64,000 nucleotides of DNA, taken from contig JAGXKI010000001.1 in the NCBI GenBank assembly GCA_018335295.1, positions 1-64,000 of the forward strand. The letters are read 5' to 3'. The first letter of the stretch is position 1, and every line of letters starts with the position of its first letter. This stretch comes from a bacterium (GTDB lineage Bacteria > Acidobacteriota > Aminicenantia > Aminicenantales > Aminicenantaceae). Shown piece after piece: positions 30,945 to 52,960 of this stretch. Under the pieces are notes generated by a model that was not told where the DNA came from, ran no database searches, and saw only the letters and a list, made by a program, of their open reading frames with translations. A program made the translations under genes and the position numbers.

Positions 30945-32867
30945 ATGAGACCTCCCCTTCGAGTTTTGATTGTTGAGGATTCTCCGGATGATGATTTTCT
31001 CATTTTGAGAGAACTCCAAAAGAACGGGCGTAAGGTGGAGCATCAGAGAGTGGAAAATCTTTCCCAAATGAAGAAGGCATTGGATGAAAAGAAATGGGAT
31101 GTGGTGATTGCTGATTATGTGCTTCCTCAATTCAGCGGACTGGGAGCCCTCAAACATATAAAGAACAGGGGGAGTGATTTACCTCTGATCATGGTTTCAG
31201 GGAAAATTGGAGAAGATACAGCCGCAGATTCCATAAAAAAAGGCGCCTATGATTTTGTTATGAAGGACCATCTGTTCAAACTCACTCCGGCAGTGGAGAG
31301 GGCTTTGGAGGAAGTTGAGTCCCTGAAAAAGAGAAAGAAAGCAGAACAGGAGCAGGCCCGGCTGGCTGCGGCCTTGGAACAAGCCATGGAGGGGGTTTTA
31401 GTGGTGAATTGCCGCCGGGTTATACAGTATGTTAATCCCTCAGTTGAGCGGATCATCGGGATTCAGGGTAAGGAGATTAAAGGAAAAAAATTGGATGTTC
31501 TTGGGTTCACGAAGAAGAACCCTCAAAAATTCCAAGATATGAAAAAGGCAATTCAGAAAGATGAGAGTTGGAACGGAAGAATTGATCATAAGATTGAGGG
31601 AAATCAGGAATTGAAAATAGATATTTCTCTTTCTCCCATTCTCAGAAAGGAAAAATCCACTCAACAGAATGAGTATGTGATCATTTTACGCGATGTCACC
31701 GAGGAATGGAAATTTCAGGAAAAACTCCAACAGAGGCAGAAATTGGAGGCTCTGGGAACTCTGGCGGGAGGGGTGGCTCATGACCTCAACAATATTTTGA
31801 TGCCCATTATCGTTAATACCGAATTGGTTCAAAGCTATCTTTCAGGAGAAAGTCCAGTCAGAGATTATTTGGATCAAATTCAGGAAGCAGCCAAGAGGGG
31901 GAAGGGATTGGTCAAGCAGATTGTCTCCTTCAGCCGGCAAAAAATTCAAGAATTCAAACCCCTTAGGCTGGATACAGTGCTCAAAGAAGGGATAAAATTG
32001 GTCCAATCATCTTTGCCTTCCCACATAAAAATTAAACGGAATATCCATTCACCCTGTTTTGTGAAAGCTGATCCTACTCAAATCCATCAGGTGGTAGTCA
32101 ACTTGTGTGGTAATGCAGCAGATGCTATGAAAGAGAAAAGCGGAACCATTCGTGTGAGTCTCCAAGAGATGAAATTGAATCCTGGAGAAACTGCTTCTCA
32201 TTTGGGATTGGAGCCGGGAAATTACGTAAATTTGAGAGTGAGTGACTCAGGTCCAGGCATGGATCAAAAAACTTTAAAACAAGCCTTTGACCCATTTTTC
32301 ACCACCAAAAACGGAAAAGGCACAGGAATGGGACTGGCTGTGGTACACGGGATTGTGAAGAGTCATCATGGAACCATCACTGTCCAAAGCCGGAAAGGGA
32401 AGGGCACCACTTTTGATGTGTATTTGCCATCAATATCTTTGGGTGAAGAAGAAGAAATCAATGAAGAGGATCTCCATTCCCTTCCAGGGGGAGAAGAGCG
32501 TATCCTGTTGGTGGATGATGATGAAACCCTGCTTTACAGTGTCCACAGGGTTCTGGAAAAATTGGGTTATTCTGTTAACAGTCATAAAAATAGTCGGAAG
32601 GCTTTGAATGAATTCTGTAGCAGTCCCTATGATTATGACTTGATTCTCGTGGATCAAGTCATGCCTCAGCTCTCGGGAATGGATTTTTCAAGAAAAGCCA
32701 TGGGTGTGAGGGAGGATATTCCCATTATTTTGATCACCGGCTACAGTGAGGAAATTCAGAAGGAAGAAGTCAAAGCCCAAGGGATCGACGAGTTTCTCAT
32801 GAAACCTCTTTATTCAGGAGAGATGGCCGAAGTTCTCCGCAGGGTTTTGGATTCAAAGGGAACCTAA
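30945..32867 (+). CDS. hybrid sensor histidine kinase (REC-PAS-HK-REC)
   Basis: N-terminal receiver VEDSPDDDFL/DYVLP, H-box GGVAHDLNNILMPI, ATPase NLCGNAADA...SDSGPGMD...GKGTGMGLAVVHGI, C-terminal receiver LVDDDETLLYS/LVDQVMP. Confidence 0.92.
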   Translation: MRPPLRVLIVEDSPDDDFLILRELQKNGRKVEHQRVENLSQMKKALDEKKWDVVIADYVLPQFSGLGALKHIKNRGSDLPLIMVSGKIGEDTAADSIKKGAYDFVMKDHLFKLTPAVERALEEVESLKKRKKAEQEQARLAAALEQAMEGVLVVNCRRVIQYVNPSVERIIGIQGKEIKGKKLDVLGFTKKNPQKFQDMKKAIQKDESWNGRIDHKIEGNQELKIDISLSPILRKEKSTQQNEYVIILRDVTEEWKFQEKLQQRQKLEALGTLAGGVAHDLNNILMPIIVNTELVQSYLSGESPVRDYLDQIQEAAKRGKGLVKQIVSFSRQKIQEFKPLRLDTVLKEGIKLVQSSLPSHIKIKRNIHSPCFVKADPTQIHQVVVNLCGNAADAMKEKSGTIRVSLQEMKLNPGETASHLGLEPGNYVNLRVSDSGPGMDQKTLKQAFDPFFTTKNGKGTGMGLAVVHGIVKSHHGTITVQSRKGKGTTFDVYLPSISLGEEEEINEEDLHSLPGGEERILLVDDDETLLYSVHRVLEKLGYSVNSHKNSRKALNEFCSSPYDYDLILVDQVMPQLSGMDFSRKAMGVREDIPIILITGYSEEIQKEEVKAQGIDEFLMKPLYSGEMAEVLRRVLDSKGT

Positions 32868-32870
32868 ATT

Positions 32871-34289
32871 ATGGCTAAAGCTCTTATTGTCGATGACGAC
32901 CGGATGGTATGTCAGACTATCTCCAACGTGGTTGAGAGTTTGAATCACCAGGCAGAAAGTGTTCGTTCTCTAGAGGAATGCCTTCAGACTGTCCAGAGTA
33001 ATGAATATGATGTGATCTTTCTGGATGTCCGTATGCCAGATGGGAGTGGGATCGATTTTCTCCCCCGAATCTGCAAAGATCCTTCTTCTCCTGAAGTCAT
33101 CATCATCACGGGATACGGAGATCCCGACGGGGCTGAATTGGCTATTAAAAACGGAGCTTGGGATTATGTGGAAAAACCTCTTTCTCTGAGATCTATCAAA
33201 CTGCCTTTTCTCCGAGCTCTGCAGTATCGGGAAGAGAAAAAATCGGCTCCTCAACCGGTTTCCTTGAGAAAAGAAGGGATTGTGGGAGAAAGTCCCAAGA
33301 TGGAAACCTGTTTTGATATGGTGGCCAAGGCCGCCAGCAATGATGCCAATGTACTGATTACGGGGGAGACCGGAACCGGCAAGGAGCTTTTTGCTTGGGC
33401 TGTTCACAACAACAGTTCCCGAGCTCACAAAAATTTTGTGGTGGTGGATTGCACGGCTCTCCCCGAAACTCTGGTAGAGAGTGTGCTGTTTGGACATTCC
33501 AGGGGGGCCTTTACGGGAGCCAACAAGTCCAGGGAGGGACTCATTAAACAATCCGATGGAGGAACCCTGTTTTTGGATGAAGTGGCCGAGCTTCCTCTGT
33601 CCATGCAGAAAAAATTCCTGAGGGTACTTCAGGAACGAAAGTTTCGGCCGGTGGGTTCCAACCAGGAAATGAAAAGTGATTTTCGGTTGGTGGCTGCCAC
33701 TAACCAGGATATCGAAAGCCTTATGAAGCAGGGAAAATTCCGCGAAGACCTTCTTTTCAGGCTGCGGTCTCTGGTTATTGATCTTCCTCCTCTTAGAGAG
33801 AATAAAGAGGATATTAAAAAGATAGCTGTCCATTATCTGAATAAATTGAGCGATCGTTTCGGGATGGAAAATAAAGGGGTTTCTCCGGAGTTCTGGAGGA
33901 TGCTCCATCAGTATGATTGGCCAGGGAATGTCCGAGAGTTGATCCAGGCATTGGAGCATGCTTTAGCCAGTGCTCAAAGTGAACCCACTCTTCATCCTCA
34001 GCATCTACCTGAACATATTCGAATCCAGGTGGTCCGAGAATCCGTCCAGAAAAACAAAAAAGACAAAAAGCCTTATAAAAAGAAAGAGATTCAAAGGGAA
34101 GAACTCCCTCAACTTAAGGAAGTCAGAGAAAAAGCTGTGAGTGAAACAGAAAAAGAATACCTGAAAGATTTGATTACTCTTACTGGGGGAAATATTCAGG
34201 AAGCGATTCGTATATCCGGGCTTTCCCGCTCCAGACTTTATACCCTCCTCAAAAAATACAATCTCTCTCCCTCCGAAGGAAGAAAATGA
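32871..34289 (+). CDS. NtrC-family sigma-54-dependent response regulator (REC-AAA+-HTH)
   Basis: LIVDDDRMV, GETGTGKELFAWAVHNNS, GAFTGA loop, LFLDEVAELP, WPGNVREL, C-terminal Fis-like HTH. Confidence 0.95.
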   Translation: MAKALIVDDDRMVCQTISNVVESLNHQAESVRSLEECLQTVQSNEYDVIFLDVRMPDGSGIDFLPRICKDPSSPEVIIITGYGDPDGAELAIKNGAWDYVEKPLSLRSIKLPFLRALQYREEKKSAPQPVSLRKEGIVGESPKMETCFDMVAKAASNDANVLITGETGTGKELFAWAVHNNSSRAHKNFVVVDCTALPETLVESVLFGHSRGAFTGANKSREGLIKQSDGGTLFLDEVAELPLSMQKKFLRVLQERKFRPVGSNQEMKSDFRLVAATNQDIESLMKQGKFREDLLFRLRSLVIDLPPLRENKEDIKKIAVHYLNKLSDRFGMENKGVSPEFWRMLHQYDWPGNVRELIQALEHALASAQSEPTLHPQHLPEHIRIQVVRESVQKNKKDKKPYKKKEIQREELPQLKEVREKAVSETEKEYLKDLITLTGGNIQEAIRISGLSRSRLYTLLKKYNLSPSEGRK

Positions 34290-34408
34290 GTTTCCTGTTT
34301 TACAGAACAAATCCTTTTTTATTGAACTGAATTTAAAAATTATACTCGAGTCCCTCTCTTTATTTTTGATTTTTCCCCTGGACAAACAATTAAGGAATAA
34401 AACTTACG

Positions 34409-34425
34409 TTGGCACAAATTTTGAT
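34409..34425 (+). promoter_or_regulatory. sigma-54-like -24/-12 promoter
   Basis: TTGGCACAAATTTTGAT; GG to GA spacing 12 nt as in YTGGCACGNNNNTTGCW. Confidence 0.6.
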
Positions 34426-34496
34426 TAAATAAAATATGAAGGCTTATTGAAATGGTCTATAACTATCCTGAGAAAGAAAGTTGGAGAGTTTATCAT

Positions 34497-34859
34497 ATGA
34501 AATTACTTCTTTATGCTTCCACAACGCAGCCTCCATGGAAAAAGATTCAGGAATATGTAAAGAAACGAGTCTCATATAAAAATTTAGAATTGTATCAAAC
34601 CATTGAGGCACTCAAGCAGAGACTTTGTCAACCCAAAGAAGAAATGTTTGTGGGGTTCCTTTTGGTTTCAGACAGAGAAGGACTTCTGGACATTCTTTCT
34701 CTCCGGCAGTTGTTTTTGGATATCCCCACTATTCTTATCATACCGGACAAAGAAAAGGAAACCATTGCTCTGGCCCACCGGTTCCGACCCAATTTTTTAG
34801 GTTTTAAGGATGACGAACCAGAAAAGATTTCCCAGGTTTTGGAAAAAATGCTGGGATAA
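34497..34859 (+). CDS. small receiver-like (pseudo-REC) protein of unknown function
   Basis: ORF with ATG at 34497 after GGAGAG; FLLVSDREGLLDILSLRQLFLDIPTILIIPD...FLGFKDDEPEKISQVLEKML resembles a receiver fold without a clear acidic pocket. Confidence 0.6.
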   Translation: MKLLLYASTTQPPWKKIQEYVKKRVSYKNLELYQTIEALKQRLCQPKEEMFVGFLLVSDREGLLDILSLRQLFLDIPTILIIPDKEKETIALAHRFRPNFLGFKDDEPEKISQVLEKMLG

Positions 34860-35073
34860 CTAATTTTAATATCGATAGGTTTTTCCATTGAGAGCATGGA
34901 AATTTGGAGAGGATTCAGGAAGTTGATCTCTTTAAAGTAATAGAGCTTTTTCTTCAAGATACAATCAGTGGATTGTTTGGAGAATTTTGAGGAAATTTCT
35001 ATTTTGGGATATGGGGCTTCCCACCTATTCTAGTCGAGGTCTCTCCATCCAAATGAATTGTTGTCAGAATTTT

Positions 35074-35469
35074 TTATTCAACGGTAATGTCTTTGGCATT
35101 CTTCCACAGCCCATGGATGTTGCAGTAGCTGGTAGCATAAATGGTTCCCGACTTTTCTGTTTTAAAGCTCAAAGTGACCTGATGATGAGTATAAACGGTG
35201 CTGGTATCAGGTCCCTGGGTGGATTCTCCGTGAGCCGTAAATTCAGTTTTTCCTAACTGACAAGGAAATTTTTCTCCTTCCGGCTGAAAATACACGTCAA
35301 TCCAGCGAATATGATGTTCGGTTTTGTTGGGATGGGCCACTTCTTTTCCCAAAGTCACTTTCACATCGAAAAATTCCCCTTTACTAACCGAATCCGGAGC
35401 CTCGATCACAGGGACGTGTTTTTCGGTTTTCCAGTCAGCCGATTGGAATAAATCTTTAAAATCAGTCAT
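35074..35469 (-). CDS. superoxide reductase / class II desulfoferrodoxin (neelaredoxin-like)
   Basis: EKHVPVIEAP, HIRWIDVYF, YCNIHGLW Fe-center signature; start trimmed to MTDFKDL. Confidence 0.92.
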   Translation of the reverse strand: MTDFKDLFQSADWKTEKHVPVIEAPDSVSKGEFFDVKVTLGKEVAHPNKTEHHIRWIDVYFQPEGEKFPCQLGKTEFTAHGESTQGPDTSTVYTHHQVTLSFKTEKSGTIYATSYCNIHGLWKNAKDITVE

Positions 35470-35496
35470 TTTTATCCTCCTTTTTTGAATCAAATA

Positions 35497-35658
35497 TTAT
35501 CCTAATTTTTCAAATTGGTCTTTGGGAGCTCCACACTGAGGGCACACCCAATCATCGGGTAAATCCTCGAATTTGGTTCCCGGCTTTACTCCGTTTTCGG
35601 GATCTCCCTTTTCTGGGTCATAGATATAACCGCAAACCATGCATTGCCATTGTTCCAT
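35497..35658 (-). CDS. rubredoxin (not in supplied ORF track)
   Basis: Reverse strand reads [53 protein letters not shown]; two CxxC motifs; GGAG SD upstream. Confidence 0.95.
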
Positions 35659-35672
35659 CAACGATATCTCCT

Positions 35673-35876
35673 TTATTCATAAAATTCTTTCAAAGAACTC
35701 TCCATATTATCTCTTTTCGTTTTTCGTAAAACAAGGGGCTGGGAACTAGTAAGGCCCATTCGATCTTCGTAAGTTTCCGATTTTCTATGATAGAGTATCC
35801 CTATGGGTATATGTTCTCCCCATTCCATAGCTTTATAAAAAGCCTGGCTTCGGTCAGTGGGATCATAGGATGGCTC
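35673..35876 (-). pseudogene. 3' remnant of 2-oxoacid:ferredoxin oxidoreductase beta subunit
   Basis: Frame reads ...[66 protein letters not shown]; this is the typical C-terminus of KorB-like subunits; no upstream beta sequence. Confidence 0.75.
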
Positions 35877-37485
35877 CGGTGGCGTTGTTTTCCACCCCTA
35901 TCAGACGGGAGGTTTTTATGATTCCTGGAGGAATGGAATCTTTTCGAAAAGGAAATATTTCACTGAAATGGATATATCCGATATCAGTCCCTTTGTTTCT
36001 CAGAGTTTTGACGGTTTCATCCACGATTCCCCAAGTGGATCCCCAACTGAGAAGATAGATGTCCGCTTTTTGATGGGGGTATATTTGGGGGGAAGACATT
36101 TCTTTAAGAAGCCCCTGCTCTTTGGATAATCTTTTTTCCACCATCTGGTTTCTTACTCGGGCGCTTTCAGTAATGTGTCCCTCCTCGGTGTGTTCATCAC
36201 TATCGGCATAAAGGACTTGATGGGGAGTTCCTGGTCGAATCCGGGGAGTGATTCCCGATGGAGTCATTTGATATCTGCGGTATTCATAGGGATTCATATT
36301 TTTTAGTTTTTCTTCTGAAAGAAATCCCTGTGGATCCGGATAAAGATTTTCCAGGTTTAATTTTTCCACCGTCCAGGATGAATCATTAAGATATTGATCT
36401 CCCAGAATTATAACCGGGCTGTGATATTTTTCTGCAAGATAAAAAGCCTTGTTTGTCAAATAAAAGGCCTCTTCGGCCGTAGATGGGGCCAAGAGACAGC
36501 GCGGAAATTCTCCGTGCCCTGCATGGGCGGCATAAAGTAAATCAGCCTGTTCAGTTCGGGTAGGAAAGCCCGTAGCTGGTGCCGGACGTTGGGCATTGAT
36601 GATCACAACAGGGGTTTCAGTCATCCCAGCCAGGCTGATTCCTTCCACCATCAAAGCCATGCCTCCCCCAGAAGTCGCCACCATAGCCCGAGCTCCACTA
36701 AAAAAAGCCCCGATGGCCATGTTGATGGCCGAAATCTCATCTTCAGCCTGCTCCACAATCAAGCCGTGCTGGTTCTTCCTGGATGCCAGAAACTCCATAA
36801 TGGTTGTGGCCGGAGACATAGGGTAAGCCGAATAAAAACGAAGGTTGGAAGCCAAAGCTCCCATCCCCATGGCTTCGCTTCCCGTGAGAATCATCCTGTT
36901 GGTTTGATCGGGATTTTTCAGATGATAGAAATGCTTTTCTTTACCGGCATTTTTGGTCTGTTTAAACCCAGCCTGAGCGCTTTTCTGATTGGCTTCGATA
37001 ATCTTCTTTCCTTTTTCTTGAAAGATTTTTTCCTGGATTTTATACAAAGAATCCAGAGGTATTCCCAATAAAGCCAGAAGGGCTCCCGAAGCCACACTAT
37101 TGGCCATTCTCGCATCTCCTCCTGTATTTTGGGCAATTTTTTGGAAAGAGACGGGAATGTACCTATTACCGGAAGGAGGGTTTCCTTTTATGGAATCTTC
37201 ATCATAGAGGATAGGGCCCTCAGTTTCTTCTTTGTGCAGGTCTAGGGTCTTTTCATCCAAACTTACCAGCAAATCCACCTGAGAGGAATGGCTGTGTATA
37301 GGATGGTTGGCTATGCGGATTTGAGAAAAATTGTGTCCTCCTCTAATTCGGGACCTCACATCCTGGTTGGTGAAGACCCAAAATCCTTTCTGGACAAATA
37401 TTTTTCCTAACAGGCCGCTGATCAGTTTCATTCCTTGCCCAGCCTCTCCACCGATTCTTATAGAAATGTCATTTTGTGGAGTCAT
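35863..37485 (-). CDS. korA: 2-oxoacid:ferredoxin oxidoreductase, gamma-alpha fused subunit, C-terminally truncated
   Basis: N-terminal gamma domain IRIGGEAGQGMKLISGLLG, alpha domain SGGGMALMVEGISLAGMTETPVVIINAQRPAPATG; ends abruptly at VENNATGAIL*. Confidence 0.88.
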   Translation of the reverse strand: MTPQNDISIRIGGEAGQGMKLISGLLGKIFVQKGFWVFTNQDVRSRIRGGHNFSQIRIANHPIHSHSSQVDLLVSLDEKTLDLHKEETEGPILYDEDSIKGNPPSGNRYIPVSFQKIAQNTGGDARMANSVASGALLALLGIPLDSLYKIQEKIFQEKGKKIIEANQKSAQAGFKQTKNAGKEKHFYHLKNPDQTNRMILTGSEAMGMGALASNLRFYSAYPMSPATTIMEFLASRKNQHGLIVEQAEDEISAINMAIGAFFSGARAMVATSGGGMALMVEGISLAGMTETPVVIINAQRPAPATGFPTRTEQADLLYAAHAGHGEFPRCLLAPSTAEEAFYLTNKAFYLAEKYHSPVIILGDQYLNDSSWTVEKLNLENLYPDPQGFLSEEKLKNMNPYEYRRYQMTPSGITPRIRPGTPHQVLYADSDEHTEEGHITESARVRNQMVEKRLSKEQGLLKEMSSPQIYPHQKADIYLLSWGSTWGIVDETVKTLRNKGTDIGYIHFSEIFPFRKDSIPPGIIKTSRLIGVENNATGAIL

Positions 37486-37516
37486 TTGTTTTCACTCCTT
37501 TGGAGTTGATTTTTAA

Positions 37517-38155
37517 TTAATGGGACTCTCTTTTCTCCCATTTGTTCATGATGTTGAGGACTTCAGAGTCCGGAACATCGTACCAATTCTTGTAGACTTG
37601 AGCTACAGCTTGAAAAAAAGAGGGAGTTTCCAGGATGATGGTTTCATTCACTAGACTTTCCATTTCCCTGGCCACTTTCTTCCCTGCAACCGGCACGGCT
37701 ACAATGAGTTTTTGAGGGTTTTTTTTCTGGCATAATTTTATGGCTGCTCTCATGGTGGAGCCCATGGCCAGCCCGTCATCGGTCAAGATAACCTTTCGTC
37801 CAGTTATTTGAGGCAGGGGTTTTCCTTGACGCAGGCTCTGGATTCTTCTTTGAATCTCTTCAATCTGAGTTTTTTTGACCCTTTTGATTTGCTGAGGAGA
37901 AATCCCCGAGCTCATGGGTTGGAGGAGAAAGGAGGATCCGTCTTCTGCGACAGCTCCAAAACCAGCTTCCGGATTATCCGGAAAAGGAAGTTTTCGGACG
38001 ATTACCAAAGAAAAACGGGCTCTCAGATGAACCGCCACCTCAAAACCCACTTCCACCCCCCCTTTGGGAATAGCTAAAACTAGAATTTCTTGGTTTTTGT
38101 ATTTTTCCAGGGCCTTTGCGAGTTTTTGGCCAGCTTCTTTTCTATCTTCAAACAT
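37517..38155 (-). CDS. phosphoribosyltransferase family protein (COG1926-like)
   Basis: FEDRKEAGQKLAKAL, LAIPKGGVEVGFEVA, PRPP-loop region VILTDDGLAMGSTMRAAI. Confidence 0.88.
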   Translation of the reverse strand: MFEDRKEAGQKLAKALEKYKNQEILVLAIPKGGVEVGFEVAVHLRARFSLVIVRKLPFPDNPEAGFGAVAEDGSSFLLQPMSSGISPQQIKRVKKTQIEEIQRRIQSLRQGKPLPQITGRKVILTDDGLAMGSTMRAAIKLCQKKNPQKLIVAVPVAGKKVAREMESLVNETIILETPSFFQAVAQVYKNWYDVPDSEVLNIMNKWEKRESH

Positions 38156-38267: not shown

Positions 38268-38285
38268 AGCAAAAATTATGCCAAA
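38268..38285 (-). promoter_or_regulatory. sigma-54-like promoter upstream of the PRT-Kor-Rub-SOR genes
   Basis: minus strand TTGGCATAATTTTTGCT: intact TTGC -12 box, TGGCA -24 box, 12-nt spacing. Confidence 0.65.
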
Positions 38286-38413
38286 AAATGATAAAAGAGG
38301 GATTTTGAAGAATAGATGCGCTAAGTTCCAGCAAAGTTTATGGAAATAAAAATAAAAGAAGAAAGTAGTTTTTTTTGTTTTGAAGAATAAGTCCCATTAA
38401 ACAGGACGCTGTT

Positions 38414-41251
38414 CTATGATTCAGAACTGGAAGTTCGTTTGGAGAGCTTTTGAAGGGCTTCCTGCAGTCGATGAAGAGCTTGAGCTGCCTTTTCAAACTG
38501 TTTCTGTCCTTGAAAACGGAGATAGTCCTCGAAGGCCTGGTTGGCTTTTTGGATTAATTTTTCAGAGGATATTTTTTTCTCTATCGATACTTCTTTTTCG
38601 GTAGGCAATTCTTTAGCCGTTTTTTCGAAAAGCCCTTTTAAAGCCTGGTCAAAAGTTTCAGCATAACTGAGATTATCCCCGTGCATGACTGCCACTAGAC
38701 GAAGTTCAGGGTAAGCCGCCGTTTCTGACTGAAGGTAGAGGGGTTCCACATAGATCAAAGTTTTTTCGATAGGAATAGCCAAAACATTTCCCCGGATGAC
38801 ATTGGACCCTCTCTGGTCCCACAGGGTAAGTTGACCAGAGAGGAACCGGTCCTGGTCTATTTTGGTTTCCACCTGCTGGGGACCCAGCATACGTTTTTCC
38901 TTAGGAAATTTATAAGCCAGAAAACGACCGTAATTTTGGGGGTCGCACATGCCAGCAATCCACCCAATAAGCACCTGTCTGTTTTTGGGGGTGAAAGGGA
39001 GAATGAGAACAAATTGAGGTTCATCGGAACCGGGAAGTTCCCACATGACATAGTAGGGCTCCACAGGTTGAACCTGATTGTAGTATTTTTCGGTCGCCCG
39101 GATCCAAAGGTCTTCCTGATTGTAAAAAACGGTGGGATCACTCATGTGATATTTGGCATAAACCAGCCCTTGGACTAAAAGCATGTCCGAGGGATAGCGG
39201 ACATGATTCAGGAGTTCTGGGGGCATTTGGGATTTCTTTTGAAAAAGCTCAGGAAATATTCGGTCCCAAACCTGGATCAAAGGGTCTTTGGGATCAAATA
39301 CATAAAAATTCACAGATCCCTCGTAAGCATCCACCACAACCTTGACGGAATTGCGGATATAATTTATCCCGTCCAGGTATTCTCCCACATTGGTGGACAA
39401 GCTTCGGGTTTGATTGCCCATTTTGTATTCGATGGTTTCTCTGGAAGAAAAAGCTTCGCTGTAGGGATATTGGGAAGAAGTGGTGTAACCGTCGAGTATC
39501 CAGTACAGTTTTCCATCAGCCAGAACGATGTAGGGATCATCATCAAAGTTAAGGAAAGGAGCCAGAGTTTTTATGCGTTCGGATATTTCTCTGCGGAACA
39601 GGATGCGACTTTGAGATGTGGGATAGTTGGAAAGAAAAAACCGGGTTCCATCAAATTTCCATCCAAAAAGAAATTTCCGCCAGATGTTTTTAAGAACCAC
39701 ACCTCCTTTGCCCTGGTAGCGGGTATAAACATTTTTTTCTCCACTGGGATAATCCAGTTCTTTTTCTCTAGTATTGGCCACCACATGAGAGTCGGTGAGT
39801 TCCCCATAGTATATTTGAGGTGTGGTGACTTCAAGCTCAGGATACTTGCTTTTAGGAGGGATATCTTTAACTAAAAGATTGGGTAAGCCGTCCGCGGTGA
39901 ACTCTCTGACTGGGGTCAGGGTGATTCCGTTTCCATGTGTGTATTTGAACCTTTTATTAACAAAAGTTTGGCTTTTTAAGGGAAGATTGGATAATTCAAG
40001 TTCCCTGGCGGAGACCATGACCTGACGGTATTCGTTGTTGAAGGTGTAACGGTCAATGTCCACATCTTTGAATTCGTAGTAGAGGCGGATTTCCTGGAAC
40101 TGCTTGTAAACAGCGTCCAAGGCTCTCCAGTCCCACAACCGAATGTTGGAGAAGATATTTTGATTCTGCTGGACCATTTGGGGAGTGAATTTTTCTGTGG
40201 CAGGATATTCTCTTTCTTCGACCACATGAAGTCTGAATCCCCTTCGAGTCATCTGGATGTTGTTTTCAATATAAGGCTTTTCGAAGGTGATCTCATTGGG
40301 TTCAACCCGAAGCCACTGAAAAAGTCCAGGAATGAGAGTTAAGATGATAAACCACAGCAAAAAGGTTCCCGCAACAGCTGAGCCCAGAACATAAACAGGA
40401 CTGCGCTGATGGGTGGTCCGTTTTTCCCACACATTTTTCAATCGGTTTCTCAGAGGAGGAATGAGCAGGATCAATCCTGCAAGGAGAGTTAGAATAATCA
40501 CCACAGTGTAAGCAGGGAGACGGATATGAACATCGGTCCAGCCGGGTCCTATGACCGTTCCCCAAGTGGAGTAGAGAAGATGAAAGCGGTTTAGATATTT
40601 TCCATAGGCCAAGATGAAAAAAAAGAAGGCTGTACCTAAGTAGAGGGTTTGATACAGTTTCCTTTGAGTTGTGGGGTCTGATTGGGGCAGCTGGATTTCG
40701 AATTGTTCCTGGCTAACCTTCAAGAAGAGAGCTGTAAAGGCGGTCCCAATGATGACTAAGGATAACAAAAGAAGGAGGGTGTAAAACTGATCTTGGAAAG
40801 GAAGGGAAAAAAGATAGAAGCCTGTATCCTTTGAAAGAATGGGATCCTGGAAACCGCTGGAAACCCGATGCCAGAATTTTAGAATAATTTCTCAGTTGGA
40901 AGCTCCCCAAATTCCCCCGATAAAAATTCCAAGGCCTCGGGGAATGATCCGGGTGAGTTTTTTATCTTTGGGGATAGGGAGAGTGAAAAGAAAAACTATC
41001 AGCCAACTAAACAAAGCTCCCCCTACAGCGAGCCCGGTTTGACTTAAAATCAAAGTCCAGAACCGCTGATTGTAGCCCAACGACTTGAACCAAAGCATAT
41101 CTCCCCAAAAATTAAGAAACCAGAAGAAAAAAACGATGAAAAAGAAAAGCAGGAATCCGAAAATCACAGTTCCTGATTTGTTTTTTTGAAACCCTTTGTA
41201 AATAATTAACCCCGAAAGGCTGAGCAGAAGAAGGATTAAAACAGTGTACAT
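38414..41251 (-). pseudogene. UPF0182 family membrane protein interrupted by one in-frame TGA (40892-40894)
   Basis: Upstream part ends GIFIGGIWGASN*; downstream same-frame continuation EIILKFWHRVSSGFQDPILSKDTGFYLFSLPF...; both sides UPF0182-like; ATG at 41251 with GGGGAG. Confidence 0.85.
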
Positions 41252-41365
41252 CTTTATCTCCCCATATTTTTGGGTTATCATACACGAGGAATTCTTAAAT
41301 TGCAACTCATTCTTGTTCCATAGGAGATGGGAATGGAGTTACCAAAAGTTAAAATATTTTCAAAC

Positions 41366-41383
41366 TTGGCATGATTTTTGGAT
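41366..41383 (+). promoter_or_regulatory. sigma-54-like promoter upstream of the baeRF gene (weaker)
   Basis: TTGGCATGATTTTTGGAT; correct 12-nt spacing but -12 box TTGG instead of TTGC. Confidence 0.4.
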
Positions 41384-41403
41384 AAATTACAAAGGAGGTG
41401 CTT

Positions 41404-42552
41404 ATGGATAGATTAAGCAAGGATGGACTGACTCAATTGATGAAAAAACAACAGGGTTTATGTGTATCTATTTATATGCCCACCGAAAGAGCTGGAAGGG
41501 AAACCAGGCAAAATCCCATTCGGTTCAAAAATATGATGGGAGAAACGGAAAAACAGTTGAAAAAAGGAGGCGTTAAGTTTCAGGAGATTCAAAATTATCT
41601 CCAGCCTTTGCAAAGACTTCAGGACGATAATTATTTTTGGCTCAACCAGAGTGACGGATTGGCATTGTTTCTCTCTTCCCAAACCTATTCCTATTACCGC
41701 CTTCCTTTTCGATTCAACGAATTGGTGGTGGTGAACTACCGATTCCACATCAAACCTCTTTTGCCCTTGCTCAGCGAGGAAAAATTTTATATCCTGGCTT
41801 TGAGCCAGAATGATATAAAGCTTTTTCAAGGGACAAGATTCACCATAAATGAAATAGAATTGGAGGGAGTACCTAAAAACATTTCCGAAGCCCTAGGTTA
41901 TGATAACCTTCAAAAGCAACTGCTTTTTCATCCAGAGGCTTCTGTAGGCAAGGATAAGCAGTGGAATAAGTTCCACGGTCATGGGGGAGGACCTGAGAAA
42001 GAAAAAGATTTTATCCTTCAATTCTTTCGCAAAGTCAATGAGGGGGTTTATGAAAGATTGAAAGAGGAAACCGTTCCACTAGTACTGGCCGGAGTGGATT
42101 ATCTTTTACCTCTTTACAGAGAAGTCAACACCTATTCGAATTTGTTGGAAGAAGGAATCGAAAAAAATACTCAAAATATGAAAGAGTCAGAGCTGCATGC
42201 GCAGGCCTGGAAAGTGGTGGAGCCGGCTTTTCTAAAAGCCCAGAAGGAAGCTTTGGAGGAATACCATCAGCTGGTGGGAACAGGACACACTTCCCAACAC
42301 ATAGAGGATATTGTACCGGCAAGTTATTACGGAAGAGTTGGGATTCTTTTTGTTTCCCGAGGCGCTCAAATATGGGGAAAATATAATCCGGATAAAAATG
42401 AGGTGATCAAAGAAGAGTCTTCGACTCCCCAGAATGAAGATTTGCTGGATTTCGCTGCTCTTCATACTCTCCTCAGAGGAGGAAGAGTGTATGTTGTGGA
42501 ACCAGACAAAGTTCCTCAAGGAGGATCCACAGCCGCTATCTATCGGTTTTAA
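41404..42552 (+). CDS. baeRF-like protein (bacterial archaeo-eukaryotic release factor-related family)
   Basis: VSIYMPTERAGRETRQNPIRFKNMM, LNQSDGLALFLS, FYILALSQNDIKLFQG, LVLAGVDYLLPLYREV; SD AAAGGAGGTG before ATG 41404. Confidence 0.75.
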   Translation: MDRLSKDGLTQLMKKQQGLCVSIYMPTERAGRETRQNPIRFKNMMGETEKQLKKGGVKFQEIQNYLQPLQRLQDDNYFWLNQSDGLALFLSSQTYSYYRLPFRFNELVVVNYRFHIKPLLPLLSEEKFYILALSQNDIKLFQGTRFTINEIELEGVPKNISEALGYDNLQKQLLFHPEASVGKDKQWNKFHGHGGGPEKEKDFILQFFRKVNEGVYERLKEETVPLVLAGVDYLLPLYREVNTYSNLLEEGIEKNTQNMKESELHAQAWKVVEPAFLKAQKEALEEYHQLVGTGHTSQHIEDIVPASYYGRVGILFVSRGAQIWGKYNPDKNEVIKEESSTPQNEDLLDFAALHTLLRGGRVYVVEPDKVPQGGSTAAIYRF

Positions 42553-42673: not shown

Positions 42674-43303
42674 ATGCAGGAACCTCTGGAAATTTCTTTT
42701 CGAGGTGTGAAAAAAAACAAAGATATGGAAGATTTGATCCAGAAAGAAATAGAAAAACTGGAAAGAGTCTGTGATTCAATAATTCGGGCCCACATTTCTG
42801 TGGAATCTCCACAAAAGCATCAGGAAACAGGAAATCCTTATCGTGTGAGAATCAGCATTTCTGTGCCTCGAAATCCTGAGTTAGTAGCCGTTCAGGAACC
42901 AGGAGAAGAAGACATGCATAAGCCCCTTCATGCGGTCATAAAAAGTACTTTTAAAAAAAGCCGGAGACAGTTAAAAAAATACATGGCGAAACGGAAGAGA
43001 GAAGTGAAATCTCATCCCCATGAGCAACCCAATGCCATCGTGGTGAAGATATTTAAAGACCAAGGGTATGGTTTTTTGAAGAATTTGGAGGGAAAGGAAG
43101 TTTATTTTCACAAGAACAGTGTACTAAGGGGGGGATTTGATTCTTTGGAGATAGGTACAGGAGTTCATTATATTGAAGAAGAAGGGGAGAAAGGACCCCA
43201 GGCAAGCACTGTGCGGATTGTAGACAAACCCGGAGTTCGAGCATCCAAAGTAAAGAAAAAACCTTTTTTTCCTGAGGGTTGGGAACCCCAAAGGGAAGAA
43301 TAA
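42674..43303 (+). CDS. HPF/RaiA-like ribosome-associated domain fused to cold-shock domain
   Basis: N-terminal EISFRGVKKNKDMEDLIQKEIEKLERV...HAVIKSTFKKSRRQLKKY; C-terminal AIVVKIFKDQGYGFLKNLEGKEVYFHKNSVL. Confidence 0.82.
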   Translation: MQEPLEISFRGVKKNKDMEDLIQKEIEKLERVCDSIIRAHISVESPQKHQETGNPYRVRISISVPRNPELVAVQEPGEEDMHKPLHAVIKSTFKKSRRQLKKYMAKRKREVKSHPHEQPNAIVVKIFKDQGYGFLKNLEGKEVYFHKNSVLRGGFDSLEIGTGVHYIEEEGEKGPQASTVRIVDKPGVRASKVKKKPFFPEGWEPQREE

Positions 43304-43391
43304 AAAAGTTTTCATAAAGCGTCTCTTTTTTAGAAAGGGGAGGCTGGTCAGATAAAAATGAAAGCAAAGGTGAGTTTATAGGAAGAAGGGG

Positions 43392-46300
43392 ATGCCTAAA
43401 CTTTTTATAAACAGAAGAGCGTTTTTATCTTTATTCATTGGACTCTGGGTAGTGTTGATAATGGTTCCTTTGAGTGGACAATATTTTGGCCGAAATAAAG
43501 TTCAGTATGACACATTCAATTTCAAAGTGATGCACACCAAGCACTTTGATATTTATTTTTATCCAAAGGAAAGAAATATCGCTCAACACGCAGCTCGGAT
43601 TTCTGAAAGATGGTATGCCCGGTTGTCACGCATCCTGGACCATGATCTGAAAGGGCGGCAGATATTGATCATTTATTCCAGTGCGCCTCATTTCCAGCAA
43701 ACCACGGCCATTCCGGGCATGATCGGAGAGGGAACCGGAGGGGTGACCGAAATGTTAAAACGCCGGATTGTCCTTCCCTTGGCTGCTTCTTTAAAGGAAA
43801 CAAACCATGTGATCGGTCACGAACTTGTTCATGCTTTCCAGTTTGACCTCACTTCCCAAAGTCACTCTCCCTATGCCCGAGCAGCTCCTTCAGCGAGGAG
43901 GCTTCCCTTGTGGTTTATGGAAGGTTTGGCCGAGTATTTATCTCTGGGCCCCCAAGATCCTCACACAGCGATGTGGATGAGGGATGCTCTTCAAAAAGAT
44001 AGAGTGCCTTCCATTAAGAAATTGACGAATACCCGCCGCTACTTTCCCTACCGATATGGACAGTCCTTATGGGCCTACATCACCGGAGAATTTGGAGATG
44101 AGGTGGTGGAAACCATTATGAAAGGAGTGAGCCGGACCGGAGATTATGAAGCGGTCATCCAAAAAGTCACAGGGGCTTCTATGGAAGAGTTATCCAAAGG
44201 TTGGAAAAACTCTTTAAAGAAAAACTATAAGCCTTTAAAGGAACAGACTCAAATCAAAACTCCTTCCGGTCGTTTGCTCATTGAAGGTACCAAGGAGAAT
44301 CAACTGAATGTTTCTCCTTCCATAAGTCCCCAGGGGGAAAATTTGGTCTTTCTTTCCACCAAAAACCTCTTTTCCATAGACATGTACCTTGCAGATGCTC
44401 AGAGTGGAGAAATCAAGAAAAGGCTGACTAAGACCGCCGTTAACCCTCATTTTGAGAGCCTTCAGTTTATAAAATCTTCAGGAAGCTGGGATAAACAGGG
44501 AGAACGTTTTGTGTTTGGAGCTGTGAGCCGAGGAGACCCTGTTCTTTCTGTTTTCGATATAAAAAAGAATCATGTGATAAAGGAAGTGAAGTTTCCGGAA
44601 TTAGGGGAAATTTTAAACCCCAGTTGGTCCCCGGATGGGAAAAACATCGTTTTTTCAGCATTAGTGGGCGGGATCACTGACCTTTTTATATATAATTTGG
44701 AAAAAGGGAGCCTGAGAAAACTGACCGATGATCCTTATGCTGATCTATATCCTTCCTGGTCTCCTGATGGACGAAGGATTGCTTTTGTGACAGACCGGTT
44801 CAGTACCAGTCTTACTGAATTGAATATAGGAAATTACGAAATGGCCCTGTTTGACCTTAAATCCCAAAAAACTCAAAAAATTTCCACTTTTCCCGAGGCC
44901 AAAAATATCAACCCTCAATGGTCCCGAGATTCTGAGAGCATATATTTTCTTTCTGACCGAAACGGCATCTCCAACATCTACAGGGCGGATTTAAGTAAGG
45001 GAGAAATCTATCAGATCACCAATTTGTATACGGGAGTCAGTGGAATCACAGGTTTGAGTCCGGCGATTTCTGTAGCGAAAGAGAATGGGGATTTGGTTTA
45101 TTCTCTTTATGAGGATGGAAAATACAGCCTTTACAGCATTTCTTCTTCAGAACTGGCTCGAATGGAAAAACCTGTAACTCGTTTTGAAAGATTGAACCCT
45201 TCTGTTTTACCTCCCAGAGATCAACCCCGTGGGGATGTGGCTGAGCTTATCCGGAATCCTCTGTATGGTCTTCCCCGGACTCAGAAGTATGAAACAAACG
45301 ACTACAATCCTAAATTAACTCTGGATTATGTCGCTCCTCCTCAGGTAGCCATAGGAGTGGACCGGTTTGGAACTTATGGTGGGGGAGGGATCGCCATGTT
45401 TTTCAGCGATGTCCTGGGCTACCACAGTTTATCCACTATGGCTCAGGTAAGTTCTCGGATACAGGATTCTTCGGCTCTGGTGGGTTATCAGTACAGCAAG
45501 TACCGCTGGAATTTAGGAGCGGTGGTCCAGAGAATTCCTTATGTAACCGGGGGATACTCTCGGAGTATTGATCAAGTACAAGGAGAACTGGCATCCATAG
45601 AAAGGGAGTACATTTTCCGACAGGTGAATTACCAGGTTCAGGGTTTGGCCTCCTACCCTTTCAACCAGGTGAATCGATTCGAACTCTCTGCAGGGTATCG
45701 TTTTCTCAATTTTGATAGAGAAGTCTACAAACGGGCTTATTCCCTGGTTAGCGGGATTCAGCTTCTCCGAGAAAAACAGGAGCTTTCGGCCCCCCAGAGT
45801 CTTCATTTCGGTACGGCCCAAGCCGCCTTTGTCTACGACAGTTCCTTTTTTGGAGCCACCAGCCCTATTCTGGGGCAGAGGTACCGGTTCGAAGTTTCTC
45901 CATACATTGGAACTTTAACCTACCAAAACATTCTCGGGGATTACCGACGTTATTTTATGCCTTTACGTCCTTTCACTCTGGCTTTTCGGTTCCTTCATTA
46001 CGGAAGGTATGGAAAGGATGCGGAAGATGAACGGTTGTACCCGTTGTTTTTAGGCTACCAGAGCCTGGTAAGGGGATACAACAGAGGGTCTTTCAGTGCG
46101 GAAGAATGTGGGAGTGCAGAAAATTGTTATGTCTTTGATCGATTGTTTGGGAGTAAGATGATGGTATTCAATGCGGAACTTCGTTTTCCAGTGTTTAAGG
46201 TTATCGGTATAGGAGAAGGGTATTATGGAGTATTTCCTCTGGAGTTCAATGCTTTTTTTGACAGCGGGATAGCCTGGAAAAATAGGGATAAAGCTTGGTT

Positions 46301-46454
46301 TCTGGGAGGAGAACGAAAACCGGTTTCCAGTACTGGATTCGGTTTCAGGGCGAATGTAATGGGCTATGCTGTCCTGGGAGTTTATCTGGTCCATCCTTTT
46401 AACCGTCCTCAGAAAGGCTGGTACTTTCAGTTCACTTTTGTCCCTGGTTTCTAA
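43392..46454 (+). CDS. outer membrane protein with peptidase-MA-like HExxH domain, TolB/PD40 repeats and BamA-type barrel
   Basis: NHVIGHELVHAFQFDL, repeats SPSWSPDGK/YPSWSPDGRRIAFVTD, C-terminal surface-antigen-type barrel ending QFTFVPGF. Confidence 0.82.
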   Translation: MPKLFINRRAFLSLFIGLWVVLIMVPLSGQYFGRNKVQYDTFNFKVMHTKHFDIYFYPKERNIAQHAARISERWYARLSRILDHDLKGRQILIIYSSAPHFQQTTAIPGMIGEGTGGVTEMLKRRIVLPLAASLKETNHVIGHELVHAFQFDLTSQSHSPYARAAPSARRLPLWFMEGLAEYLSLGPQDPHTAMWMRDALQKDRVPSIKKLTNTRRYFPYRYGQSLWAYITGEFGDEVVETIMKGVSRTGDYEAVIQKVTGASMEELSKGWKNSLKKNYKPLKEQTQIKTPSGRLLIEGTKENQLNVSPSISPQGENLVFLSTKNLFSIDMYLADAQSGEIKKRLTKTAVNPHFESLQFIKSSGSWDKQGERFVFGAVSRGDPVLSVFDIKKNHVIKEVKFPELGEILNPSWSPDGKNIVFSALVGGITDLFIYNLEKGSLRKLTDDPYADLYPSWSPDGRRIAFVTDRFSTSLTELNIGNYEMALFDLKSQKTQKISTFPEAKNINPQWSRDSESIYFLSDRNGISNIYRADLSKGEIYQITNLYTGVSGITGLSPAISVAKENGDLVYSLYEDGKYSLYSISSSELARMEKPVTRFERLNPSVLPPRDQPRGDVAELIRNPLYGLPRTQKYETNDYNPKLTLDYVAPPQVAIGVDRFGTYGGGGIAMFFSDVLGYHSLSTMAQVSSRIQDSSALVGYQYSKYRWNLGAVVQRIPYVTGGYSRSIDQVQGELASIEREYIFRQVNYQVQGLASYPFNQVNRFELSAGYRFLNFDREVYKRAYSLVSGIQLLREKQELSAPQSLHFGTAQAAFVYDSSFFGATSPILGQRYRFEVSPYIGTLTYQNILGDYRRYFMPLRPFTLAFRFLHYGRYGKDAEDERLYPLFLGYQSLVRGYNRGSFSAEECGSAENCYVFDRLFGSKMMVFNAELRFPVFKVIGIGEGYYGVFPLEFNAFFDSGIAWKNRDKAWFLGGERKPVSSTGFGFRANVMGYAVLGVYLVHPFNRPQKGWYFQFTFVPGF

Positions 46455-47812: not shown

Positions 47813-47835
47813 GATTAATTTATAGGGAGGCAAAA

Positions 47836-48618: not shown

Positions 48619-48673
48619 TTTGTAGAGGATTTTTGGGAGAAATTCAAATTTTAAAGGACCAAGGAGGTTCAGT

Positions 48674-49129
48674 ATGGTTCCTTTTAAAAAAATACTCTGG
48701 CCCACTGATTTTAGTGAGCCTTCTTTCAAAGCACTTCAAGCCGCCAATGAACTGGCAGTTCATTTCAAAGCGCATTTGTACGCAGTCCATGTAGTGGCCC
48801 CTATTCCAGTTCCTTCAGCTCCGTCCGGTCCAACCAGTTTCAACATTGCGGTGTATAAAGATAATTTGGATACTTCAGCCAAAAAGGCTCTCCAGGACGT
48901 GATGAAGAACCGTATATCTCAGGATTTGGAAAAAACACCTGTGGTGACTCACGGAAACGCCGCCGATGAAATTGTACGGATAGCCGATGAGCAAAAAGTG
49001 GACCTCATCGTTCTCGCTACACATGGTCTCACTGGGGTTCGTCATTTTATATCTGGTTCAGTGGCTGAAAAAGTAGTGAGGATTTCCAACCATCCGGTGC
49101 TTACTATCAGAGCTTCTCAAAAAGAATGA
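48674..49129 (+). CDS. universal stress protein (UspA family)
   Basis: ILWPTDFSEPSFKALQAANELA, IVLATHGLTGVRHFISGSVAEKVVRISNHPVLTIR. Confidence 0.95.
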   Translation: MVPFKKILWPTDFSEPSFKALQAANELAVHFKAHLYAVHVVAPIPVPSAPSGPTSFNIAVYKDNLDTSAKKALQDVMKNRISQDLEKTPVVTHGNAADEIVRIADEQKVDLIVLATHGLTGVRHFISGSVAEKVVRISNHPVLTIRASQKE

Positions 49130-49175
49130 TGATATATCCATCTGATTTTTGATATAGATTCTAGGGTATGTTCTA

Positions 49176-50189: not shown

Positions 50190-50318
50190 TTCAACGGGAG
50201 GGATGTTTCCATGGACTAAATTTTATGGGAATCCGAGATTGTGAAATCTTACCGAGCCATGGAAGGGAAAAATTGAATCGGTCATTTTTAAATGATAAAT
50301 TTAATAAAGGAGGTAAAA

Positions 50319-50834
50319 ATGGGGAAAATTGCGATCATTATAGCGGATATGTTCGAAGATGTGGAATACATCAAACCGGCCGAAGCATTCAAAGTCAAGG
50401 GACATGAACTCATTCATGTAGGATTGAAAAAGGGAGGAAAAGTTAAAGGGAAAAAACAGGGAACTGAAGTGCAGATTGACAACTCCGTCAAAGAGGTTTC
50501 AGTTGAGGATTTCGATGCTTTGTTCATCCCCGGAGGTTATTCTCCAGATAAACTTCGGGGTGACCCGGAGGCAGTCAAATTTGTGAAGGAATTCATGAAT
50601 TCGGGGAAACCGGTCTTGTCTATCTGTCACGCTCCCCAAATTCTTATTACTGCTCAAGTGTTGAAAGGGCGGAAAGTTACCGGTTGGAAGTCTGTTGTTC
50701 AGGATATAAAGAATGCGGGAGCGGAATATGTGGATAAGAGTGTGGTTGAGGATGGAAACTTGGTGTCCAGCCGGCATCCCGGGGATCTGCCCTTGTTTAT
50801 CGAAGCCGCCTTGAAGAAACTAAAAAAAGAGTGA
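50319..50834 (+). CDS. DJ-1/PfpI family protein
   Basis: IIIADMFEDVEYIKPAEAFK, DALFIPGGYSPDKLR, SICHAPQIL; SD AAAGGAGG before ATG 50319. Confidence 0.92.
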   Translation: MGKIAIIIADMFEDVEYIKPAEAFKVKGHELIHVGLKKGGKVKGKKQGTEVQIDNSVKEVSVEDFDALFIPGGYSPDKLRGDPEAVKFVKEFMNSGKPVLSICHAPQILITAQVLKGRKVTGWKSVVQDIKNAGAEYVDKSVVEDGNLVSSRHPGDLPLFIEAALKKLKKE

Positions 50835-50935
50835 GTGTGGAGATTTTCATCATTTAGGATGATTCAGGCTGGGGTAGAAAATAGGAGGGAAAAGGATAAG
50901 GATTTTTGCACTCTAAGTCAAATGAAGGGAAGAAC

Positions 50936-52960
50936 ATGAATAACCATAAACATGGAAAACACCAGGGAAAAGGACATCATGCCCATATGTTGGAAGATTT
51001 TAAAAGACGTTTCTGGCTCTCTCTGATACTGACTCCTTTTGTTTTAGTTCTTTCTCCACTCATCCAGTCTTTTTTAGGGATTTCATTCAGATTTACAGGA
51101 GATCGGTTCATTCTTTTTGTTCTTTCTTCTTTTATTTTTATATATGGAGGATGGCCCTTTCTCAAAGGAAGCGTCGAAGAGTTGAAAAAAAAGCAGCCGG
51201 GGATGATGACTCTCATCGCTCTGGCTATCAGCGTGGCCTACGTTTACAGCGGTCTGGTGGTTTTTGGATTGACAGGGAAAGTTTTTTTCTGGGAACTGGT
51301 GACTTTGATCGATGTGATGCTCCTGGGCCATTGGATTGAGATGCGCTCGGTGATGGGCGCTTCTCGAGCATTGGAAGAGTTAGCCAGGCTCATGCCTTCC
51401 CGTGCCTACCGACTGACCCCAGAAGGTTCTCTGGAAGAAGTGAAAGTGGAGGACTTAAAGAAGGGGGATATGGTTTTAGTCAAACCGGGAGAAAAAGTGC
51501 CTGTGGATGGACGGGTGAAGGAGGGAGAGTCCGAGATGGATGAATCCATGATTACCGGAGAATCCCAGCCCATCCCGAAAGAAAAAAACAATCAAGTGAT
51601 CGGTGGTTCTGTCAACGGGACTGGGTCTTTGACGGTAGAGGTGAACAAAACCGGAGAAGAATCATATCTTTCTCAGGTGGTGGAATTGGTTAAAAAAGCG
51701 GGAGAAAGCAAATCCCGGGTCCAGGATTTCGCCAACCGGGCGGCTTTCTGGTTAACCCTTATCGCTGTTACCGCAGGGTTGGCCACGTTGTTCACCTGGT
51801 TGATCCAGGGGAAAGAGTTTGTTTTTTCTCTGGAACGCATGGTCACAGTGATGGTGATCACCTGCCCTCATGCTTTGGGGTTAGCAATCCCCCTGGTCAT
51901 AGCGGTGGTCACCGCGTTATCCGCCAAAAACGGATTGTTGATTCAAAACCGAGGTCCCTTTGAAAATTCCCTCCGTGCCCATACAGTGGTTTTTGATAAA
52001 ACAGGAACTTTAACCCGTGGAGAATTCGGGGTCACCGATGTAATTTCCCTTGGAGATTGGAGTGAGGAAGAGCTGTTGAAGAAAGCGGCTTCCGTGGAAG
52101 CCCATTCCGAACACACCATAGCCAAGGGAATTGTCCAAAAAGCCCAGGAAGAGAAAATAAATTTGGAAAAATTGAAATATTTCCAGGCTCTCCCTGGTAA
52201 AGGAACTCAAGCGGAACTTGGGGGGAATGAAATCCTGGTGGGAAATAAAAGGATTCTAGAGAAATCAGGGAGATTATCCGGAAAGGAAAAACAAGAATTT
52301 GATGAAATGTCCTCTCAAGGAAAAACCGTGGTGTTTGTGGTTTCTAATGGAAAAATTCAAGGAATTATAGCTTTGGCAGATATGATCCGTGATGAATCCA
52401 GAGAAGCTGTAAAAGAGCTCCGAAAAATAGGGATGGAAGTGGCCATGATAACCGGGGATAACCAACCCACTGCCGCTTTTGTGGCCAAAGAATTGGGGAT
52501 TAAAACATTCTTTTATGAAGTTCTACCGGATCAAAAATCGGAAAAGATAAAAGCACTGCAGAATCAGAGTAAAAAGGTGGCCATGGTGGGTGATGGAGTT
52601 AACGATGCCCCGGCTCTGGTTCAAGCAGACGTAGGGATTGCTATAGGAGCTGGGACCGACGTGGCTGTGGAATCTGCTGATGTCATTCTTGTGGAAAATG
52701 ATCCCCGGGGTGTAGTGGATGTCCTTCAGTTTTCTCGGATAACCCGGCGCAAAATGAAACAAAACCTGGCTTGGGCCACAGGATACAACGTGGTGGCCAT
52801 TCCTTTGGCTGCAGGGGTTTTGTACAATTGGGGGATCTTGTTATCTCCGGCTGTGGGAGCCCTGGTGATGTCTTTGAGCACGGTGATTGTGGCCTTTAAT
52901 GCCCGACTCATTTCCTATAAGAAAAGAGAACAGGGGAAATCTATCTCTGCTCCCAGTTAA
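50936..52960 (+). CDS. copB: copper-translocating P1B-type ATPase, CopB-like (CPH motif)
   Basis: His-rich N-terminus MNNHKHGKHQGKGHHAHML, VITCPHALGLAIPLV, DKTGTLT, MVGDGVNDAPAL. Confidence 0.92.
   Translation: MNNHKHGKHQGKGHHAHMLEDFKRRFWLSLILTPFVLVLSPLIQSFLGISFRFTGDRFILFVLSSFIFIYGGWPFLKGSVEELKKKQPGMMTLIALAISVAYVYSGLVVFGLTGKVFFWELVTLIDVMLLGHWIEMRSVMGASRALEELARLMPSRAYRLTPEGSLEEVKVEDLKKGDMVLVKPGEKVPVDGRVKEGESEMDESMITGESQPIPKEKNNQVIGGSVNGTGSLTVEVNKTGEESYLSQVVELVKKAGESKSRVQDFANRAAFWLTLIAVTAGLATLFTWLIQGKEFVFSLERMVTVMVITCPHALGLAIPLVIAVVTALSAKNGLLIQNRGPFENSLRAHTVVFDKTGTLTRGEFGVTDVISLGDWSEEELLKKAASVEAHSEHTIAKGIVQKAQEEKINLEKLKYFQALPGKGTQAELGGNEILVGNKRILEKSGRLSGKEKQEFDEMSSQGKTVVFVVSNGKIQGIIALADMIRDESREAVKELRKIGMEVAMITGDNQPTAAFVAKELGIKTFFYEVLPDQKSEKIKALQNQSKKVAMVGDGVNDAPALVQADVGIAIGAGTDVAVESADVILVENDPRGVVDVLQFSRITRRKMKQNLAWATGYNVVAIPLAAGVLYNWGILLSPAVGALVMSLSTVIVAFNARLISYKKREQGKSISAPS

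Follow-up and report, generated by a model that had tools for sequence, protein, structure and literature searches.

Does a 22-kb run of genes that recalls the dormancy (DosR) regulon of Mycobacterium tuberculosis stand under one sigma-54 activator, or do only some of its genes? The question is raised by positions 30945-52960 of a 64-kb stretch of DNA, here called the window, which takes up the first 64000 bases of the 162-kb contig C85 in a draft metagenome-assembled genome of an Aminicenantes bacterium (2.54 Mb, 107 contigs); all results reported here are computational. A sequence-only reading of the window had proposed that the entire region is a dormancy or low-energy stress island under sigma-54/NtrC control, resembling DosR content. 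The gene families it named, among them an NtrC-type regulator with an intact GAFTGA motif, are all present where it placed them (by Pfam), two of them in damaged form: the UPF0182 gene is cut by an in-frame TGA, and the beta subunit of a 2-oxoacid:ferredoxin oxidoreductase (POR) is reduced to a remnant. The proposal also depends on rpoN, and the genome carries this gene (PF04552, E 4e-61). The locus is probably a composite, in which the regulator with its targets and a ribosome-hibernation pair lie among neighbours without evidence of shared control.

The activator and its predicted targets

The proposed regulator (32871-34289, plus strand) is a sigma-54 activator of the NtrC family, with REC, AAA+ and Fis-type helix-turn-helix domains; it has GAFTGA at residue 212 and the phospho-accepting Asp, and its gene follows by 3 bp that of a hybrid sensor kinase (30945-32867, plus strand) with the domain order REC-PAS-HisKA-HATPase-REC (by Pfam), its H-box and C-terminal REC domain being recognizable. 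Orthologues of the regulator, at 54-63% identity, occur in about a dozen genomes of the same order; their recognition helix, SGLSRSR(L/F)YTLL, is nearly invariant, and near one of them (in L199) lies a 41% homologue of the hybrid kinase. Next in the window comes the gene for a small REC-like protein (34497-34859, plus strand, with the start at 34452 or 34497), which matches no family in Pfam or NCBIfam and whose single-sequence structure model, an alpha/beta fold of low confidence (pLDDT 54), is too poor for a structure search; its orthologues (31-35% identity) lie close downstream of the NtrC orthologue in seven of the ten relatives' loci examined.

Sigma-54 sites were scored with a weight matrix built on what is generally known of the consensus, without training on sequences from this organism. 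The top three of the 64 kb stand, in this order, before the gene for a COG1926-type phosphoribosyltransferase (PRT) (TTGGCATAATTTTTGCT, 38268-38284, minus strand, also an exact match to the stricter pattern given below), before the gene for a Balon-family (baeRF) factor (TTGGCATGATTTTTGGA, 41366-41382, plus strand) and before the REC-like gene (TTGGCACAAATTTTGAT, 34409-34425, plus strand, found by both pattern and matrix, with its position and TTGA-type -12 element as in relatives). The promoter pattern of the sequence-only reading gives five matches in the window at up to two mismatches, where 2.6 are expected, and with two mismatches proves uninformative genome-wide, matching no more often than its reversed control (69 vs 69); a stricter pattern matches 12 times while its control has no match, and two of the 12 fall in this region. 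Across the ten loci of relatives (L190-L199), sites scoring >14 number 15, compared with 1.4 in shuffles, and are also far above control loci; in most of the loci having the REC-like gene, TTGGCATGTTTCTTGA-type sites stand upstream of it, or of the outer-membrane protein (OMP) gene that precedes it.

Upstream of the relatives' sigma-54 sites recurs a 17-bp palindrome, often in tandem. The matrix for this candidate enhancer was trained only on the relatives' NtrC-orthologue loci, on the DNA preceding the sigma-54 sites in L190-L199; enhancer counts in these ten loci are thus circular, whereas the result for the window is not. The palindromic seed of the first matrix was read by eye while the window was in view. 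This matrix ranks 38391 first (score 20.0) and 34292 second (15.7) of all window positions, and the same two lead when training omits the relatives' REC-like promoters or uses those alone; an unseeded, non-palindromic search on the relatives' loci returns the same motif, with 38391 first and 34292 behind one other site, 30432. Both positions belong to tandems: at the REC-like gene, TTCCTGTTTTACAGAAC (34292-34308) and ATCCTTTTTTATTGAAC (34311-34327) lie 19 bp apart at -117 and -98 from the promoter, which matches the spacing in relatives (-117/-118 and -97/-98); at the PRT gene, GTCCTGTTTAATGGGAC (38391-38407), the best site of the window with every training set, and GTTCTGAATCATAGAAC (38411-38427, score 8.3) lie 20 bp apart at -123 and -143. 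A degenerate enhancer pattern with one mismatch is about equal to its control genome-wide (104 vs 97 per strand), so that only the weight matrix and a sigma-54 site combined discriminate. Such joint elements, with an enhancer 80-200 bp upstream of a sigma-54 site and strict thresholds for both, number two in the window and zero in 386 kb of Aminicenantes control loci, in 1.31 Mb of other phyla and in 6.4 Mb of shuffled window.

The REC-like and PRT genes are each preceded by a putative -24/-12 promoter with upstream enhancers. Because the two best matches in the window to the relatives' enhancer motif sit 117 and 123 bp upstream of their sigma-54 sites, and the REC-like spacing is as in relatives, it is very probable that the regulator controls the REC-like gene, as well as the operon that runs from PRT through the POR remnant to rubredoxin and superoxide reductase (SOR); the REC-like protein would be an autoregulated partner. 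The hybrid kinase and the activator would together sense a signal, upon which the activator would become phosphorylated, bind the palindromes (GTSCTRTTTAAYAGSAC type, in tandem at 19-20 bp) at a distance of about 100-145 bp before the sigma-54 promoters, and activate the REC-like gene together with the PRT operon of the minus strand. Taken as a whole, with the hibernation pair alongside these targets, we regard this model as likely.

Several observations weigh against it. The searched genomes of this family contain, besides the window's own, no regulator orthologue of >50% identity, and in two of the family's genomes the vicinity of the PRT orthologue lacks a sigma-54 site; the pairing of the PRT operon with the regulator may therefore be young. 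The second PRT palindrome (38411) is weak on its own, and the genome holds at least 25 NtrC-like matches, so that another activator could use some of the sites. The baeRF site has GG in place of GC at -12, and no enhancer before it scores >9.5, the one at that score standing at -56.

An alternative is that the genes are neighbours by chance: housekeeping, stress and laterally acquired genes with no connection to one another, beside a two-component system that controls only itself and the REC-like gene. The scattered occurrence in relatives of PRT, UPF0182 and the HPF-cold-shock-domain fusion (HPF-CSD), as well as the gene decay, speaks for it. However, the best enhancer match and the best sigma-54 site both stand at the PRT operon and not at the REC-like gene, PRT-rubredoxin-SOR is a conserved operon, and Nostocales show another cluster of PRT, HPF-CSD, baeRF and UPF0182, as a Deltaproteobacterium does for UPF0182 and baeRF; such a chance arrangement is thus improbable.

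Two further sites lie on other contigs of the same genome. On C15 (L217, 10763-11263), a second REC-like-looking gene has a sigma-54 site, TTGGCATAATTTTTGAA, with palindromes at -113/-133 (enhancer match at 11231), and adjoins a possible lytic transglycosylase gene; the same architecture before a second gene of this kind argues for a real, small regulon. On C13 (L205, 1967), an exact sigma-54 site, TTGGCACAATAATTGCA, stands upstream of two genes for receiver-domain proteins and of heterodisulfide-reductase-like genes and, as read by eye, behind a hydrogenase-like gene; no palindrome is found there, and this site is thus likely served by another activator.

Many sigma-54 sites in L190-L199 stand before genes for 48-aa DUF5670 proteins, C39/M48 peptidases, OmpA/glycine-zipper proteins, DUF6600 proteins and RNB ribonucleases. 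The relatives' regulator sites precede DUF5670, C39 peptidase, RNase II-type, DUF6600 and outer-membrane-type genes, which agrees with the published notion that sigma-54 controls the cell exterior (PMC3162934), and the activator is an example of a conserved regulator with quite different target genes in related genomes. It is a tentative thought, and rather a doubtful one, that same-order Aminicenantes run a sigma-54-dependent general stress response through a single activator of the NtrC type that has a palindromic enhancer of its own and lineage-variable targets, these being DUF5670/lmo0937-type, C39/M48 peptidase, OMP/DUF6600 and RNase II-type genes in the relatives and superoxide defence, perhaps with the Balon/HPFcold pair, here; if true, the activator would do the job that sigma-B or sigma-S does elsewhere. 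Among open-licence papers, nothing was found on sigma-54 regulation in the uncultured Aminicenantes. The analysis supplies a specific regulator, a 17-bp operator with its tandem spacing, and named targets, and the regulon can thus be tested in vitro without culture.

The predicted superoxide reductase operon

The four genes of the predicted operon lie on the minus strand, with gaps of 31, 204 and 3-6 bp. PRT comes first (37517-38155; PDB 1wd5, E 6e-32; orthologues at 65% and 59% identity) and SOR last (35074-35493; PDB 2amu, E 8e-47); the latter carries the iron-ligand motifs HPN..EHHIRW and CNIHGLW and has a rubredoxin partner (35500-35658), its predicted electron donor, which identifies it as a one-iron SOR. 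Between them, the POR gamma-alpha chain (35863-37485) is truncated at its C-terminus, shortly past IGVENNATG, and a remnant of the C-terminus of the beta subunit follows immediately in a different frame (35676-35876; PFO_beta_C, E=2e-13); since this is all that remains, most of beta is gone. A deletion within 35676-37485 fuses the end of alpha to the last part of beta out of frame, and intact alpha and beta subunits are not present; this may reflect gene decay or an assembly artefact.

Another genome of the same family (L236) has PRT, rubredoxin and SOR together without POR, at 65, 79 and 79% identity respectively. As this operon has no sigma-54 sites, the PRT-rubredoxin-SOR arrangement probably predates its control by the activator. 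Except for this PRT-rubredoxin-SOR group, the PRT orthologues of relatives (65%) lie apart from the other genes of the window. If the activator turns on the operon as proposed, one of its outputs would be the removal of superoxide in an anaerobe.

The putative hibernation pair and its neighbours

The baeRF gene (41398-42552, plus strand, likely start ATG 41404) encodes a putative ribosome-hibernation factor (NF052287, E 1.4e-41). By sequence, it matches Balon in the PDB (8rd8) with E 5e-12; by fold, it matches Balon first, with Msmeg1130 and Rv2629 among the next (8rd8, 8v9j, 8v9k; TM-score about 0.6, domain offsets being likely). Its three-domain aeRF1-like fold lacks GGQ; the protein is a Balon homologue in the family of Rv2629, and, scoring 143 bits in NCBIfam where the equivalog cut-off is 330, a distant one and not an equivalog. 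The following gene encodes the HPF-CSD fusion (42674-43303, plus strand), with S30AE and cold-shock domains as in the HPFcold type; it matches HPFcold of Coxiella burnetii (9t0z) with E 9e-30, both domains being covered. Together, the two proteins would cap idle ribosomes, the Balon homologue at the A site and HPFcold at the mRNA channel and anti-Shine-Dalgarno. Their control by the same activator is possible and weakly indicated by the sigma-54 site at 41366.

Divergent from the pair lies the UPF0182 gene (38414-41305, minus strand), for a membrane protein; its 963-codon frame is intact but for one in-frame TGA (40892-40894). At this position the 67% homologue from a genome of the same family, the closest relative, has a Trp, which is conserved. 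Recoding of the TGA was considered and ruled out, as TGA serves as an ordinary stop in this genome (at the end of the NtrC gene) and the closest relative has Trp at the site; it may be a recent nonsense mutation, a strain variant or an assembly error.

Among the window's relatives, the genes of this neighbourhood (PRT, UPF0182, baeRF and HPF-CSD) are rare or lie apart: the HPF-CSD fusion occurs in no other of the 148 genomes searched, UPF0182 in 6 genomes and PRT in 3 of 60 (the latter two counts including the window's own genome). In two Nostoc-type genomes (L058, L059), PRT, UPF0182 and HPF-CSD all lie within about 10 kb of baeRF, and in part also in L051, L054, L062 and L066; in a Deltaproteobacterium (L097), UPF0182 is divergent from baeRF. 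Neighbourhoods of baeRF and HPF are already known (PMC6514570, PMC10901736); UPF0182 finds no mention as a neighbour of the pair in PMC6514570. As far as the literature covered goes, the recurrence of UPF0182 and PRT beside Balon/HPFcold across phyla is new, and offers a clue to what these two little-understood families do.

In addition to their usual UPF0182 gene at another place, L058 and L059 each carry a second one near baeRF, HPF-CSD and PRT.

These patterns bear on the origin of the region. The four families may form a hibernation module that spreads laterally and was inserted beside a resident regulator, which captured the PRT operon later. Their rarity among the window's own relatives, their proximity in L058 and L059, the divergent UPF0182/baeRF arrangement in L097 and the second UPF0182 copies in the cyanobacteria would all fit such a history; gene order and orientation are not the same in the different phyla, however, the 67% UPF0182 homologue within the family fits vertical descent of that gene, and no mobile-element genes are seen. 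We consider this origin a serious possibility, short of an even chance; it is compatible with the model of an activator with REC-like and PRT targets.

The right-hand part of the region holds genes of the M50-CBS (site-2 protease with CBS domains), Fpg, Usp, GalT-like, DJ-1 and P-type ATPase families, by Pfam. Within the region there is also a gene for a 1020-aa beta-propeller/OMP-like protein (43392-46454) that is absent from the list of the sequence-only reading. Outside the region, at 24210-29600, an aminotransferase-like gene is flanked by two gamma-glutamyltranspeptidase-like genes (read by eye). Matrix scans found no sigma-54 site or enhancer upstream of the M50-CBS, Fpg, Usp, GalT, DJ-1 and P-ATPase genes, and their sharing in the control is not supported.

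Comparison with known systems

How far, then, does the likeness to DosR carry? The DosR regulon of M. tuberculosis has a COG1926 PRT, a CBS-containing site-2 protease and a metal ATPase. It further includes the Balon-type factor Rv2629 and the HPF Rv0079 (PMC10901736), and Usp proteins (PMC6127331). The overlap in families is real and no accident of common families: baeRF, HPF-CSD, PRT and M50-CBS occur as one copy each in this genome, Usp as two genes, and five of these six genes fall within 12 kb (37.5-49.1 kb), which would hardly be expected by random placement, with the proviso that the set was picked after the clustering had been seen. Along with the two strongly supported sigma-54 promoters, this clustering speaks for an island of 22 kb equivalent to the DosR regulon under the NtrC-type regulator. 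Against it, such control has no support for the rightmost six to seven genes, the orthologues of M50-CBS (about 63%) and UPF0182 (67%) lie elsewhere in relatives, where no synteny with the rest of the region was found, two genes are broken, and the DosR box TTSGGGACTWWAGTCCCSAA has 0 matches at up to three mismatches in the 64 kb. The sequence-only reading had itself named a lack of conserved neighbours in relatives as a ground for refutation, and for the island as a whole such a lack is largely what is observed, with PRT-rubredoxin-SOR as the exception. One island under shared control is thus quite improbable, and the proposed sigma-54/NtrC control is supported for the REC-like gene and the PRT-POR-rubredoxin-SOR operon, whose promoters both carry the relatives' enhancer motif, and weakly for baeRF/HPF-CSD.

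What is shared with the DosR regulon is protein families only. The regulator here is a sigma-54 activator of the NtrC type and not of the DosR type (NarL/LuxR) with DosS/DosT kinases; control is supported for PRT-SOR and the REC-like gene alone, and SOR with rubredoxin represents the oxygen defence of an anaerobe. The lxa locus is alike as a contiguous cluster of stress genes that includes Usp, but encodes six Usp together with heat-shock, BON and phosphofructokinase proteins, whereas this region has one Usp and none of the others (compared without gene-by-gene homology).

With the Balon family (PMC10901736, PMC6514570) the baeRF protein shares a match in sequence and fold over its whole length, the lack of GGQ, an adjoining HPF gene and a neighbourhood of stress genes; it differs in having about 20% identity, a score below the NCBIfam cut-off, and HPFcold as its partner. 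The HPF-CSD protein has the same layout of S30AE and C-terminal cold-shock domain as HPFcold of C. burnetii (CBU_0020; PMC13392368), but is paired here with a Balon homologue, and was not found in the other relatives searched.

In architecture, the two-component system resembles the NtrC, AtoC and ZraR systems, with which it shares the REC-AAA-Fis layout, GAFTGA, an adjacent kinase, tandem palindromic enhancers and -24/-12 promoters. It differs from them in that the regulator falls below every NCBIfam equivalog cut-off shown and has its own enhancer motif, and in that the predicted targets are stress and envelope genes together with the REC-like protein.

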